DNA of 64,000 bases, taken from assembly GCA_947561715.1 (NCBI GenBank), contig OX387201.1, positions 19,110,001 through 19,174,000 on the forward strand. Direction: 5' to 3'. The notes below the pieces were generated by a model. That model was not told where the DNA came from. It did no database searches and saw only the letters and a program-made list of their open reading frames with translations. A program made the position numbers and the translations under genes. This document shows positions 1,480 to 64,000 of the stretch, piece after piece. The stretch comes from Ascidia mentula. Lineage: Eukaryota; Chordata; Ascidiacea; Phlebobranchia; Ascidiidae. Numbering within the stretch: position 1 is the stretch's first letter; each line of letters starts with the position of its first letter.

Positions 1480-3440
1480 ATTCTATGTAGTAAACAGATG
1501 GTTTCTTACCACAGGGTACATGGCGTTCCCAGCAATGTTGCAGTTGTTTCCTCGATGTCTTGCAATTTTTTTGTAACCAGAATGTTGATGTTTGCCATCA
1601 CCGGACACCAAACTGCAAAGTCACAGAAAAGTAAGATTATTGTGCGGTCTTACCATGCATGGACCAACAAGTCATTTCGTTGTATCACATTAACATGGCG
1701 AGCTTATATACCAACTTAAATTCTGTACCTATCTTTAACAATCCAGTACTTGTCTTCTCCTTCTTGTTTGGAAGAATCTCTTCCATATCCGACAACCAAC
1801 ACTGCGTGCGCTAGAGAGTTGTCATTTGATTCGTCGTATTTACCAAGGTCGTAGAAAATATCTGAGTTGCAAGTAGTGTTGCAGTGGAGAATTTAAACAC
1901 AATTAGTAAAGCGTTACCTTCGTTGTTGGTGTGGTTTAGATATTTAAACTTGTCAGAAACCAACAAACTTGCAGCAACCGGACCAACTTGTGAAACAACT
2001 GTTTCCAATTCTTCTTCGTTTCCATAAGGAATTGATTCCCATCCTTGAATTTTGACTTTGGATTTTGGGAAAATTTCGGCAAATTGCTGTTTCTGTTTTC
2101 AAATGAAAAGGTGGAAAATGCGTTACAAAGTGTGTATGGCATGACTCCCACTCCCTGATTCACTCAGGTATAACCAGTTTTGAACCTATATGTTATTTCC
2201 AATAAAAAAAATACATAGAAACACAATAGGTTTACCAGAAAAATATATTTTATAGCCTCCACGTACTCATTTTCCCCGTGTACAACCTAAATTGGTTTAG
2301 AGATGGGACTAAAGTCGATGAAGTCAAGATTGTTGTTTTTCACAACCACACATGCTATACCATCTGGTGCGCATGATGGAGTTATACTAATCAAATTTGT
2401 TTGGGGCAGCTGACTCTTTTGTGTGCGTCTATTGTTTGTGTTGTCTGGCTGTGGTAAAGTGTCATGTGACACTTCTCTACACAAACCCGCAAAGAGTGGC
2501 TGCTAGAGCAGATACAAAAAATTTAAATAATTATGCAACGATACCTTTCCAACGTAGGAATATTCTTCCTCTGTGCACAATCCCTTAATTTGAATATATT
2601 GAAAAGCCAATCCTATGTCACCTCGTCCATCACCTCCTGGTAAGTTGTCAACCAATTGTTGTTTTGAAAGTTTAATCAAGTTATTATTTAAAATTTTGTT
2701 GTGCGCTTCGACAGCTGTCACCTGAAAAGTTTACTTAATTTTTTATTGTTCTGCTGCCCATTGTATCCAAGAAGGACGACGTGTATTTGCGAAGAATTGT
2801 TTCTTCAACGAAAAAAACTCTTACTTACTGCGCTAAATATCCAGCAAGACGGTATCTCCCCTTGATCTTCCACCGTCGTCACACAACCTTCGTCGCGCCA
2901 ATCTTTATTTTCTGGATGATTTTTACTTCGAGCAACAACGGCTTTTGTTTGAAACGTAGTTCCGAACATTTTCGTTCGATACGAAGTTGTCGAATTTAAT
3001 CCATTCATCCAAGACAATTCCTTAACCTCCTGAGTCACCTCCTGAGTTTCTAAACGAAATAGTTTTGTGAAATTAATTTTAGCTACTGTACTTGAAGTTG
3101 AATAACCTTCTTGGGGGTCTTGGTCCGAAATGGTGTTTGTTGCACTGGTTTCAGTGTTAGGTTGACTGGATAAGGACATTGTGGAATTGATGAAACCTTT
3201 AATACTCTTTAGTTCCAATAGGGGTTTTTTTAATTCAACTGAAAACTTGATTTTCAAAATTTCGAATGCAGTTTGTAGGAATTCCAGGGAAAACAACATC
3301 AAATCAACAATAAACTTGATGTTTTGCTCGGTTTGGTCCCCATTAAAGTCTTGTTTGTTGAAATATATCCACAACTGTTTGATGTTTTTAGCACTGTTGT
3401 TAATGCGGTTAAATTCAAGAATGTTGTTAGGATTCCCCAT
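1480..3440 (-). CDS. Papain-family cysteine protease, upstream unit (unit A), probably impaired
   Basis: A cathepsin L/papain-like mature domain is spread over about six exons: about 2829-3440, 2545-2721, roughly 2300-2499, roughly 1911-2110, 1730-1895 and about 1512-1605. Exon 1 ends QGEIPSCWIFSA with the nucleophile Cys. Exon 2 gives VTAVEAHNKIL and KQQLVDN. Later exons give VVSQVGPVAASL, then LAHAVLVVGYG with the catalytic His, KYWIVKD, and the C-terminus GNNCNIAGNAMYPV. The catalytic Asn of the usual VKNSWG is Asp, and the Trp-Gly after it is replaced (spliced KDSLVSG). Cys22 and Cys63 of the first papain disulfide, and Cys56, are absent. Exon 1 opens with about 130 residues unlike an I29 propeptide and has no signal peptide. 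The stretch between YVGK and VKIQGW is longer than usual and its splicing is uncertain. The gene ends either in nine extra residues after YPVV or by splicing in phase into unit B. Confidence 0.65.
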
Positions 3441-3540
3441 TTCATCACCTCATACGTTCCTGTTAATTTTCCTGCGTAGTAAACGCAGATGTCACGTTTG
3501 GTTCACAGCAAGCTTTAACTTATCTTTCACTTACGTTTGA

Positions 3541-59230: not shown

Positions 59231-61432
59231 ATGACGTCACTCAAAGGCCTTGTTTCAACGGTGGAACTGATTGGCGCCACCTATGGAGAGACGCGACACG
59301 AGACTTGGGACTTGAAGGAATATTGCCTTCGAGCTTGTCAGTATTTATTGTCAAAACAACTGAGGTCCATGTGTTTCGCTAACGGACGGGAAAGGTGGAA
59401 GATTCTGTCCTCGGAGGTTTTCCGTCAACTCGGATTGGTTTATCGCCATCGAAGTCCGGATAAGTTGAAATTGATTATCAGCGCTGCTTTGTTAAACGCC
59501 GCCGCTGTCAGGAGACCAGGTCACCTTGCAATTGAAAATGACCTTCAAGAAGTTTGTTCCCACGTGCTGCGTTTGGCGGGAGCAAGTCAGGTTGACCTTG
59601 TCGAGGCTGCTAAAAACTTTTTGGTAAAATTTGAAGGAATGCGCGAATTCACAAAAAGAGCTTTGAGTAAAATAAAAAATGACGTCATTCAATCTGATGA
59701 AATATTTAGAATACAAACATCAATTAATGATCAATTTACTAGAATCATGAAGGAAATAATGGAGTTTTCAGTCAGAATTAAGGGCCAGGTGCCGTGTAAG
59801 TACGCTTTGGTTGGAATGGGATCCTTAGCCCGCAACGAGATCACGCCTTATTCGGATTTCGAACACATCATCGTTCTCGAAGAGGGAGCACAAAGGAAAG
59901 AGAATTACGAAGAAATTTTGGAATTCTTCAGATGGGTTTCGGTCATTTTTCAAATCGTTCTCGTAAACTTTGGAGAAACAATTGTCCGTTTTCTTTGCGT
60001 CGACGGCCTGAACAGTTCGCACAAGAAGGAAGGTGACTGGTTTTATGACAAGCACACTCCATGCGGCATTTCACCAGATGGTTTCGCACCTCAAGCATCA
60101 AAAAATCCTCTTGGCCGCGGCCAGACTGTCGCGAAACCGTGGGTCGTGGAATTGATTAAACCAGTAAGTATGATGTTGCAGTACCTTGAAACAGCGGAAG
60201 ATTTGAAAAACGGATACAACCTTGGTGATATTTTGCTGAAAACCTGCTTCGTTGAGGGAAATTGCGGAGTTTACAATGAGTTTCTGGAGGGAGTTGAGGC
60301 ATTCCGCCACGAATCCTCGAATTCCTCGCAGTTTCGTAGACAGTTGCAGGCGAACTTGCGGAACTTTGCAATTCTACACAAACCTGGACTTTTTCTACGA
60401 GGACAAAGAATGGATCTCAAGAAAACACTTTACCGCACTTTGACCCTCTTCCTTGCCTCCCTGGGGCGTTACTATGGATTCAAAGCTGCCTCTTCCTTCG
60501 AATTAGTGTCAGATCTTGAAGCAAATTCCATCGTGACAGCTGAGTTTGCCCATGAGCTCAGAGACGCCTTATCGATCGCCTATCAACTCAGGTTAATTAC
60601 CTACATGCGGAGAAATGGCCAAGAAGATGAGTTTTCAACCAAGGTTTACGACCAGATTGTGGCGAGGTCAATAGGAATAAACCGGCTTACTGTTTTAAAT
60701 CTTGCCTCAGCTCGTTTGCAACAGAAATGTCAATTTTTACTGATTGAAATGGCGAAGAAAAGTGGAAATAGTGTAGCTGAAATGCAAGAACTGGACTTGG
60801 AGCTTTACAAGAGAGGTATTGAAAAGTTGGAAAAAGAACTATTGTTTATGGTGGAATATTCAGATTCACCACAATTAGAGGTGTACAGGTATTTTCTAAC
60901 ACTAATTGGGCTCAAAGAGTATGAAGGAGCTTGTAATATGTACAGGGAGTGTTTAAAAATGCCCGAAGTTGTGTTATCAATGGTTCGCAAGGACCTGGTT
61001 TTAAAATACGCCGTGTGTCAAAGTATGACCAACCGACATGAAAAGGCTTTGCTTACGTTCTTTGAAGCTTTAGACTACTTTGGGGATCCGTTGTATTGCA
61101 CTGAAAAATACAACTGCCTTCTTGGTATTTCAAAGAGTTTGTTTTTTCTCGAACGCTACCCAGAGGCACTAAGTTACTGCAAACAAGCAACACAAGTAAA
61201 CGATCGAAACTCATTTAACGATTTCAAGAGCAGACTTTTGCAGGGGCAGATTTTGTTCGGACTTGGCCTTAAATTTCAAGCTCTGTCCCTTTTTTACAAA
61301 ATTTACGAGGAAAGAGTGAAAATAACTGAGGATGAGACGCAAGATGAAATAATTCGTGAAAACAATAAGTGCATTATATTTGTTTGGAGAGTGATCACCA
61401 ACGAGATCCGAACAAAACAAATGTTTTTGTAA
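59231..61432 (+). CDS. GlnD/DUF294-like nucleotidyltransferase with TPR-like C-terminus, intronless
   Basis: A single uninterrupted 733-residue frame. Residues about 191-217 read YALVGMGSLARNEITPYSDF then EHIIVLEEG, which fits the nucleotidyltransferase signature G-S...D-x-E (G197, S198, D209, E211) and in particular the GS-x2-R-x-E-x4-SD pattern of GlnD (PII uridylyltransferase) and DUF294 domains. The N-terminal 180 residues and the region after 300 are helical. From about 560 on, paired helices (EVYRYFLTLIGLKEYEGACN, EKALLTFFEALDYFGD, LGISKSLFFLERYPEALSYC, ILFGLGLKFQALSLFYKIYE) look like tetratricopeptide repeats. No HD, ACT or PII-binding domain is evident, so the target is unknown and a GlnD role cannot be assumed. 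An acceptor-like TTTCAG near 59174 suggests a 5'UTR intron; AATAAA is at 61616-61621. The intronless reading frame among intron-rich neighbours suggests a retrogene or an acquired gene. Confidence 0.88.
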   Translation: MTSLKGLVSTVELIGATYGETRHETWDLKEYCLRACQYLLSKQLRSMCFANGRERWKILSSEVFRQLGLVYRHRSPDKLKLIISAALLNAAAVRRPGHLAIENDLQEVCSHVLRLAGASQVDLVEAAKNFLVKFEGMREFTKRALSKIKNDVIQSDEIFRIQTSINDQFTRIMKEIMEFSVRIKGQVPCKYALVGMGSLARNEITPYSDFEHIIVLEEGAQRKENYEEILEFFRWVSVIFQIVLVNFGETIVRFLCVDGLNSSHKKEGDWFYDKHTPCGISPDGFAPQASKNPLGRGQTVAKPWVVELIKPVSMMLQYLETAEDLKNGYNLGDILLKTCFVEGNCGVYNEFLEGVEAFRHESSNSSQFRRQLQANLRNFAILHKPGLFLRGQRMDLKKTLYRTLTLFLASLGRYYGFKAASSFELVSDLEANSIVTAEFAHELRDALSIAYQLRLITYMRRNGQEDEFSTKVYDQIVARSIGINRLTVLNLASARLQQKCQFLLIEMAKKSGNSVAEMQELDLELYKRGIEKLEKELLFMVEYSDSPQLEVYRYFLTLIGLKEYEGACNMYRECLKMPEVVLSMVRKDLVLKYAVCQSMTNRHEKALLTFFEALDYFGDPLYCTEKYNCLLGISKSLFFLERYPEALSYCKQATQVNDRNSFNDFKSRLLQGQILFGLGLKFQALSLFYKIYEERVKITEDETQDEIIRENNKCIIFVWRVITNEIRTKQMFL
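59232..59239. promoter_or_regulatory. CRE-type palindrome overlapping the start codon
   Basis: TGACGTCA begins at the T of the ATG of the nucleotidyltransferase gene. It may be only a consequence of the codons ATG ACG TCA; recorded because the same palindrome sits near the kelch-gene start. Confidence 0.15.
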
Positions 61433-61615
61433 ATCTTTATGTTTTTGATCATGTATGTCCCCATTATATATTTAGTAAACACTTAAACCCGTTGTTTGTT
61501 CTGAAAATTTAGTGGATTTCGTTTCTTGTTGAAAATCGTTTTAAAATATTGATTGCATTTTTCGGTAAAAAGTAGAAATGGCTGCAAACGTAACTTTATG
61601 TGTTTGAGAAGAAGC

Positions 61616-61621
61616 AATAAA
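61616..61621 (+). terminator. Polyadenylation signal of the nucleotidyltransferase gene
   Basis: AATAAA about 185 bp after the stop codon at 61432. Confidence 0.55.
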
Positions 61622-61984
61622 AAGGTTCCCAGTCGATTTCAGCCTTAATTCATAGAGAGCCAAGGAATCACCGTCTTATACTGCTTTAGTGCCTGAAACT
61701 ATTTCTAAATCTTTCGCGCCCACACTTGTATGACGTAACAATTCCATGGACATTACGAAATATCCCGTGCACTCATCTCCACTTCAATATTTTAAGTTAC
61801 ATATTTTATTTACAAAAACAACATTATAATGAGACACGGAGGGATGCAGAGGAAAGCAAGCAGGACAAACTCAACAAATTATAACGCGTTTCGAGAAATT
61901 TATAAACTAACTTGCTTTTGACAAAACAAACAAAGCGTTCGAATATTATTCCACGACAATATACGTAGCATTGTGACGAAACAA

Positions 61985-63965
61985 TCAAGATTCCTGCTTC
62001 CCGAAGACGTCTTCGACCAAGGCGTGGTAGGAGATTCTATCCACGGAAGCCGACTTTGTAATTTCACCTCCAGACCAAGATGCGTCCAGCTAAACACATG
62101 ACGTCATTAATTCTGACGTAACGCAGTCGAGTGTTACTACGAATGTTATACAGGGAGAGTTGCATGCGTCGCAATTTATATATTGGTGGCAATCACTGCA
62201 AAAGTTACGAAATTAAACGGCAAAAAACTCATTGCTGCCACCTTGCGATATGTGATGGTTTACAATTTATAACTTGTTTTAGGGTTTGTGAAAGTGGAAG
62301 ATTTTGCAAAACTAAAGTACAACGTTACGTTCAGGCACGGAAATATACGGTAATATGTTTCCCTGCACCTCAGCCAATTATTTTACCTTGATAGGAAGTT
62401 GTTGGTATTGGACGGCCTCCACAGGGTGTTCTCTCCAGTTGATCTTGTTGACGAGTTCCTTGTAATCCAACATTCCTCCCTCCGAAAGCCTGAAATAAAT
62501 TACATGTTGGTTGGGTGTGGATTGAAACCAAGCTACTAACACGAGGAACATTTTCAAAACAATATCAGTGTGAGGAAAATATCGACAAAAGACAAAACAG
62601 TAAATCTGATCGGTTTCCTTTGCAATAATGTTTCAAATTATAAACGTGGAAACCTTCGCATGTTTTGAAAGAAGACGTGAAAATGTTATGTTTACACTGG
62701 TTTACCAGTATTTTTGGTCCAAATAATGCGTATCGCAATAAGTAGTTAATATAAACTATACTAACAAGGACCAATTCGTATTTTTTTTTGAACGCTAATG
62801 TTCCAAATTTTGTAACCGACTTGTTCATGAGAATCTGAAGGACATCTTCAGGTAGAGGGAGTTTGAATGCTCGGCACACAGTCCTCAGCACTCCCGTCGC
62901 CAATTTCCCCTTCCCAGATTGATCCTCGTATATCAGAGCATCTTGCAGGCGGGCAAAGTCCTACGAAGTAAAAACAAACGTGAGGATTCCTTTGTATTGA
63001 ATCCCATGTACCACGTGACTTTCAGACACATCTTACGGAAATATATATCATATGTACATTGATTCAACCATTGCATTAGGAATACTGTTCGCAGATATGA
63101 TTTTAGCTATAAGCGCTGTCACTGTTTTGTGCTTTTCAAATTTTAGGCCAGCTGTTTTAGTCTTAAAACCCATGTGTTGCTGTGGAATTTGTATTCTGGT
63201 TTATGCGGGCTCTGATTACATGACAAAAGGTAAAATCTGTCTGCAACAGCATTTTTATTCACATAATCCGGTACCTCGAAGTTCTTCTTCCTCAGTTTTT
63301 CCTGAGCTACAGCGAGCACGAGATTCATGTCTATTTCTTCTGGTTCGCGGTGAGCGTAGTGACGACCAATTGTCATTATCTCGTGCTCAGAGAAGTTCTG
63401 CATCTGAGCCAGTAGATTCCTATAGAGGGAAGTAATAACAATTCAACTTTGCCTTTTAAACATTCAATGTCAGAGCAAAGCCACAAGCTTGTCATAAACG
63501 TTTTCCACAAGCTTTTTTTGCAGCAAACGCAGTGAAATGCCAGGAAGGTAGGCTGCTAGTGAATGTTTAATATAGGTTAGGTTTTTAATTATAAACTGTT
63601 TTGCAGCTACTTTAATGAACAAATCGACACCTCTGTAACACTACATAGTCTAAAAAACAAACAAAAACACATGGACGAAATACTGCACACATAATTGTTG
63701 TTTTCCAAAAACCTAAACACGGGAGTTTGTCTGGCTCAAACTTCCAAGAAATTTATAAAAAAGAGCAGTCAACAAAGTAAAGTATGTTTGCACAATTTCT
63801 GTACACAATAAAACTGAAATGTCCAAATCACCTGAGACTCTCATATCTGATCGTCCCGCTGTTATCCGGGTCGTTCATCACCAAATATTCCTTCACATCC
63901 TTGGTTTTCTCCTTTGATCCTTTCCTCAACTTCTCCAGGATCAACGCGATGTTGGCTTGTGGGAA
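61985..63965 (-). CDS. EF-hand protein (EFHB/CFAP21-like?), 3' exons only
   Basis: Five exons in order: 63832-63965, 63275-63419, 62821-62960, 62387-62489 and 61985-62089. Phases are consistent and give 208 C-terminal residues; the 5' part lies past the right edge. The first exon gives FPQANIALILEKLRKG, then VKEYLVMNDPDNSGTIRYES, an EF-hand loop with D-x-D-x-S-G-x-I (position 12 is Ser rather than Glu). A second, weaker hand is EDQSGKGKLATGVLRTV, and a third degenerate one is LSEGGMLDYKELVNKINW. The C-terminus reads DRISYHALVEDVFGKQES. The pattern of a canonical hand followed by RHY and a final NW-containing helix recalls the axonemal protein EFHB (CFAP21), but I hold that only loosely. The donor of exon 62821-62960 (AA|GTCGGT) is weak. 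Confidence 0.75.
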
Positions 63966-64000
63966 CTGAGGAATGAAGAAGGAACAATAAGATTGTGATG

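Follow-up and report, generated by a model that had tools for sequence, protein, structure and literature searches.

A DUF294-type nucleotidyltransferase gene with a TPR-like tail as a divergent member of a large gene family in Ascidia mentula

The bacterial proteins DrrA and GlnE AMPylate other proteins using a shared nucleotidyltransferase fold (PMC8097203, in the part cited here), and GlnE carries two transferase units according to part of PMC12409994. Among the described systems closest to the gene considered here is the NEX2 family of Neochlamydia; the part of PMC4209131 (which we take to be Domman et al. 2014) that we cite lists 50 such proteins, with an F-box in the majority, a DUF294 'putative nucleotidyltransferase' domain in most, an OTU domain in ten and TPR, and reports a functional type III signal in the representatives tested. 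Here we analyse a gene at positions 59231–61432 in a stretch of 64,000 nucleotides (the window) on contig C69 (22.3 Mb) of the 196 Mb genome of the ascidian Ascidia mentula. The gene belongs to a large animal family, within which it is divergent and stands alone. That its product is a GlnE/DrrA-class nucleotidyltransferase with a TPR tail, acting on proteins selected by the tail and/or a helical domain, is a reading to which we give an even chance.

Predicted fold class and putative active site of the window protein

The open reading frame (ORF) runs from ATG to TAA on the + strand and encodes 733 aa in one coding exon, exactly as placed by an earlier note made from the sequence alone; a 5'-UTR intron is possible. 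The chance of 733 random codons lacking a stop is ~5e-16. In a Pfam scan that admitted E values up to 10, with filters that drop most matches above 0.1, nine families were listed. DUF294 (PF03445) matched aa 145–232 (E 3.6e-8, 33.8 bits against a cut-off of 21), bearing out the nucleotidyltransferase domain that the note had recognised from the G-S...D-x-E pattern at Y191–E211, and DUF294_C lay slightly below its cut-off at aa 392–463 (20.2 against 22.5). SidM_N gave a weak match (E 0.0042), and two weak PADLOC matches (E 1.5e-4 and 4.1e-4) fell around the motif. The label 'GlnD-type' in the note did not hold, as the GlnD equivalog models of NCBIfam reached 12–19 bits against cut-offs of 519–1299. 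The likeness to GlnD, the PII uridylyltransferase, is confined to the local motif; HD and ACT, which the note had already found absent, were not among the nine families. GlnD membership is rejected on these two results.

The closest folds to the model of the window protein, among the best 50 rows of the fold comparison, are GlnE and DrrA. Full-length chains of these proteins (1v4a, 3k7d and 6yx5) align through the fold and into the helical regions that flank it on either side, and the model has the GlnE/DrrA-type arrangement of a transferase fold flanked by helical domains. DrrA was also the best match of the protein's profile in the PDB. The models predict a polymerase-beta fold with a helical C-terminal domain. 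The N-terminal AMP-transferase domain of DrrA/SidM from Legionella ties for first place by fold and shares the GS-x10-D-x-[DE] pattern, whereas the window protein is only 10–12% identical to it in structural alignment and carries a TPR tail in place of the guanine-exchange and phosphoinositide-binding parts, no family of either kind being among its Pfam matches. Unlike GlnE, the glutamine synthetase adenylyltransferase, it has one transferase unit, a TPR tail and an animal context, and the likeness implies neither a PII nor a glutamine synthetase partner.

An active nucleotidyltransferase could instead have a nucleotide, RNA or small-molecule acceptor, for example making a signalling nucleotide as cGAS-like enzymes do. 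We regard this as unlikely, because the three full-length GlnE and DrrA chains score at least 10 Z units above the fold rows that favour such an acceptor and cover the helical parts flanking the fold on both sides; a long TPR tail would also fit a protein partner. cGAS-like/Mab21 chains were absent from the best 50 fold-comparison rows, which leaves families outside those rows open, and the Mab21 profile was not among the nine Pfam families.

Residues Y191–E211 read YALVGMGSLARNEITPYSDFE and contain the polymerase-beta-type signature G-[GS]-x(9-13)-D-x-[DE] as G197, S198, D209 and E211. In alignment A5, with 25 core rows (18 animal and 7 bacterial), G197, S198, T205, S208, D209, E211, T250, G279, D283 and L308 are invariant, the conservation of D209 and E211 being biased because the animal rows were picked by that motif. 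D283 played no part in choosing rows. In a wider set it is present in 50/50 animal, 10/10 Neochlamydia and 4/4 other bacterial rows, with three Vibrio rows gapped there; D273 is kept except for N in one of the four other bacterial rows and the Vibrio gap. This invariance makes D283 the most likely third acid. The features of the gene are as follows.

59231–61432, + strand: whole ORF, 733 aa plus TAA, for a DUF294-type nucleotidyltransferase with a TPR-like tail (ORF reading, Pfam, genome search)
59231–59662, + strand: N-terminal segment (models and fold comparison; conserved in the sister genes L019 and L056)
59663–60259, + strand: nucleotidyltransferase domain, aa 145–343 (PF03445 match; predicted GlnE/DrrA fold; near-identical block in some paralogue clusters)
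59819–59863, + strand: putative catalytic motif G197-S-x10-D209-x-E211 (in 25/25 rows of A5, whose animal rows were cut around it; missing from 2/52 fetched loci)
60041–60082, + strand: F271-x-D273...G279-x3-D283-G284 region with the likely third acid D283 (D283 invariance; region not resolved in the models)
60260–60769, + strand: C-terminal helical domain of the transferase, aa 344–513, DUF294_C, HEPN-like fold
60770–61429, + strand: TPR-like tail, aa 514–733 (Pfam, sister alignment, model; shorter than L019, 1153 aa, and L056, 1220 aa)
61616–61621, + strand: probable polyadenylation signal AATAAA, 3' of the ORF (sequence)

Further TPR exons 3' of the stop codon were sought in 61301–64000 with the L010, L019 and L056 proteins and rejected, the sole match there having E 4.6. 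Elsewhere in the window, a frame at 2805–3449 on the – strand contains what looks by eye like part of a papain-like protease (DWRDEG...DQGEIPSCWIFSA).

The domain might also be a pseudoenzyme or scaffold, a nucleotide-binding or docking module beside a functional TPR tail. Dead members are common in transferase families, and two of the 52 loci lack the motif: L065, which is broken, and L028 (C69:19860900-19865651), a possible dead member in which the domain, D283 and the remainder are intact and the D-x-E pair is lost. We rate this explanation somewhat below that of a non-protein acceptor, as D283 is kept in every ungapped row, including 14/14 chlamydial or gammaproteobacterial ones, and purifying constraint acts on the enzyme part in the paralogue pairs compared.

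A family with a constant enzyme block and variable tails in some clusters

Eukaryote comparisons were made with paralogues from the window's own genome. A search of the genome with the DUF294 profile returned 93 matches, all above cut-off, and a search with the window protein returned 63, of which 8 lay at places new to the DUF294 list; together these give a minimum of 101 matching places, broken copies included. Fifty-nine of the 93 matches lie within 20 kb of each other in 16 clusters and 34 stand alone, the window gene being outside the clusters. Its nearest relatives are a tandem pair on C2 (44% identity over aa 5–716 and 51% over aa 3–489) and L056 on C71.

For 52 of the 93 loci, fetched with flanks, frames were sorted by reading and splice sites by eye. 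At 35 loci a single ORF of 817 aa or more contains the core, and at one more (L026) the ORF has 732 aa. Ten (L009, L011, L013, L016, L017, L028, L049, L050, L052 and L057) are plausibly split by a GT-AG intron that either follows the enzyme or precedes the TPR part, two are not clear in structure (L014 and L054) and four are broken (L020, L062, L063 and L065). On the tree, the single or split state needs four changes when L054 is counted as split.

From the single exon, the earlier note had suggested retrocopying or lateral acquisition and had proposed a search for intron-containing paralogues. These exist, as listed above. A recent retrocopy or a recent bacterial import of the window gene alone would account for the one coding exon, and relatives do occur in chlamydiae and in a gammaproteobacterial metagenome-assembled genome (MAG). 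This explanation is nevertheless very improbable: the genome holds the many matching places counted above, the sisters L019 and L056 are themselves single-ORF genes with 57 and 56% core identity, no intron-bearing copy groups closely with the window gene among 50 paralogues in the tree, and core identity to bacterial proteins is only 20–34%. Since 35 of the 52 paralogues and both sisters are single-ORF, the intronless state looks inherited.

Some subfamilies were observed alongside. At C69:15.97-16.02 Mb, seven members were found with the window protein and missed by the DUF294 search; one has an internal stop, and L073, the one inspected, retains all three acids. Five near-identical copies (L027, L058, L060, L061 and L064) span ~0.7 Mb at C71:8.9-9.65 Mb, with 98–99% identity in four compared pairs among four of them and the fifth placed by branch length; this set is a recent amplification of one subfamily. 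Glyco_hydro_6 exceeds its cut-off twice in the genome (C71:8046784 and C52:18248788), once with an internal stop. Among animals this domain marks tunicates, which fits the source.

DNA identity was profiled in 40-codon windows for 16 paralogue pairs. In ten of them (nine on C72, and L010-L047 on C1), the N-terminal and enzyme windows have identities of 0.58–1.00, mostly >0.8, which drop to 0.34–0.78 from ~160 residues past the GS motif onwards (aa ~357 of the window protein), interrupted beyond the step by patches in L039-L044 (up to 0.99) and L038-L045 (up to 0.93). In the remaining six pairs there is no step at that point, or a later or partial one. The mosaic members are L010 and L047 on C1 and L038–L041, L043–L046 and L048 on C72. 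Synonymous divergence (dS) in the enzyme and the tail was 0.078 and 1.70 for L010-L047 (0.45 in the N-terminal part), 0.37 and 2.40 for L038-L045, and 0.15 and saturated for L040-L043; misalignment of tails could inflate the C72 values, whereas the tails of L010-L047 align well and its values are less exposed to this. Where residues are identical, fourfold sites have changed significantly more in the tail in 38 of 94 pairs (after Bonferroni correction) and more in the enzyme part in none, 85 of the 94 leaning in the first direction; L010-L055 does not differ between the two (0.076 and 0.075). Because fourfold sites escape selection on the protein, the mosaic would be most simply explained if the front part underwent recombination or gene conversion.

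Bacterial relatives and origin of the module

A tblastn search of 72,556 plasmid records matched seven, of which only that of Neochlamydia sp. S13 was strong (E 3e-20, 27% identity over aa 118–465, 11 places); the coordinates of the matches in genome G076 are those of these plasmid matches. The other six were generic DUF294 proteins (E 0.03–0.9). Vibrio-type bacterial DUF294 proteins share the annotation and matched weakly in that same range, but they lie beyond a long tree branch, measure ~615–625 aa and, by eye, have other N-terminal parts and no TPR tail. A scan of genome contigs with the animal-only alignment A1 gave 56 pattern matches and no relatives, and a second scan gave 19 pattern matches leading to four loci, three in a Parachlamydiaceae MAG and one in a Gammaproteobacteria MAG. 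Of 116 genomes in the phylum to which the Parachlamydiaceae MAG belongs, 17 match, some by a single weak match. A phage or virus source was rejected: none of 50,697 phage records matched the window protein at E up to 1, two scans of viral contigs gave 27 and 23 pattern matches and no relatives, and the best PHROGs match (E 0.048) lay outside the motif.

Ten unbroken Neochlamydia ORFs contain the core, at 26–28% identity to that of the window protein. The two proteins scanned both have DUF294 and many TPR_12 matches among the 25 families listed for each. An F-box is listed for one of them (L029:8538-13538), which also has an OTU-like region by eye; the other has none among the 25 of 28 families listed, and its DUF294_C match is slightly below cut-off. 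From this architecture the S13 proteins are probably NEX2, although PMC4209131 used other strains. Tblastn and alignment A2 place the mid-protein DUF294 core of these proteins in the window protein as well, with PC-[KE]-[YF]-A, GSLAR-x-E-x-TPYSD-x-E, GETI, F-x-D-x2-T-x2-G-x3-DG, P-[LF]-G and ELI in common; a DUF294_C-like part follows the core, the C terminus carries TPR in Neochlamydia and a TPR-like tail in the window protein, and both families are large and diversified. In contrast, NEX2 proteins are bacterial, with an N-terminal F-box in most, OTU in some and multiple TPRs, while the window protein has no F-box match in the Pfam scan and a short, divergent tail. As judged from their sequences, the closest bacterial relatives found are effector-type proteins of amoeba-dwelling chlamydiae. 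In S13, the 231 kb plasmid pS13 (L029–L033) bears annotated infB, nusA, rpsA, mraY, murC/D/F/G, ftsW and dnaX, usually chromosomal genes, and is either chromid-like or an assembly matter. At L029:4372-8152, a Neochlamydia copy is split into two annotated coding sequences by a break within the core.

A tree of 51 animal and 13 chlamydial rows left out Vibrio, L037, a broken Neochlamydia copy, a partial L034 copy, and L028 and L065, which lack the motif used for cutting the core. It joins the window gene with L019 (99/90) and then with L056 (100/94), and separates animal from chlamydial rows on a 100/100 branch. When Vibrio (as outgroup) and L037 were included, the animal set received an SH-like approximate likelihood ratio test (SH-aLRT) value of only 74 and branches were very long. 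An ancient exchange of the module between bacteria and eukaryotes, in either direction, is possible.

Proposed mechanism and its implications

Because DrrA and GlnE AMPylate proteins by this fold, our best guess is a protein nucleotidyltransferase steered by its TPR tail. Two metal ions would be bound by D209, E211 and D283, and the group moved from a nucleoside triphosphate onto a protein hydroxyl would be a nucleoside monophosphate, AMP being the likeliest; the TPR tail and/or the helical domain would choose the acceptor protein. We infer gene conversion behind the mosaic, the activity, AMP as the nucleotide, protein as the acceptor, the TPR part as selector and any immune role. In the paralogues, the enzymatic block would be homogenised while tails diversify, which suggests a repertoire directing one chemistry at many partners. 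A role in intracellular defence, or in another recognition task, is plausible as a further step, in view of the size of the family, its mosaic structure, its broken members and its relation to proteins of the effector type.

Several observations weigh against this picture. TPR models within aa 557–671 of the window protein reach E 0.013–0.077, every one under its cut-off in Pfam; the TPR tail is clearer in the sister L019 (41% identity across aa 3–705), where the models exceed their cut-offs (TPR_1 1.2e-16, TPR_12 3.3e-16), and the window tail is almost wholly helical in a low-confidence model. The structure models are modest, with mean predicted local distance difference test values of 52 (the first, of 733 aa, judged too weak for residue geometry) and 65.6, and neither resolves aa 245–307, which include D283, so that D283 stands as a candidate third acid for the convergence with D209 and E211 that the note had asked about. 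Enzymes with polymerase-beta folds have small molecules and nucleic acids among their substrates as well, the state of L028 together with the four broken loci of 52 means that loss of activity occurs in the family, and only two NEX2 members are predicted to be secreted in the part of PMC4209131 cited. As to the repertoire, 56 of the 94 pairs have no significant contrast between enzyme and tail. No general positive selection on tails is established, since L051-L053 alone is high in dN/dS (tail 1.14, C-terminal helical domain 1.20) and tails of the other pairs with a ratio lie at 0.19–0.62. The window gene has no enzyme/tail contrast with its sisters; its fourfold differences from L019 (59/79 in the front part, 30/38 in the tail) indicate no recent conversion, and the repertoire argument therefore rests on some paralogues only.

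A bolder version, which we consider possible though doubtful, is that some 100 genes encode protein-nucleotidylating receptors or effectors, each with a partly gene-converted enzyme and a fast-changing TPR tail, and that the module was anciently exchanged with chlamydiae that secrete it as effectors. If true, Fic and SelO would be joined by a third kind of animal AMPylase, one organised like an immune family of constant and variable parts. By title and abstract, no paper treating animal DUF294-TPR genes was found in the one open-access library searched. Public databases may well already name such animal proteins.

A large animal family that combines the GlnE/DrrA fold with intact acids would be a third candidate class, open to direct assay. 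Near-identical enzyme blocks next to saturated tails allow a test of whether variable recognition parts aim one chemistry, and the architecture shared with chlamydial NEX2-type proteins ties an animal gene family concretely to the effectors of symbionts.
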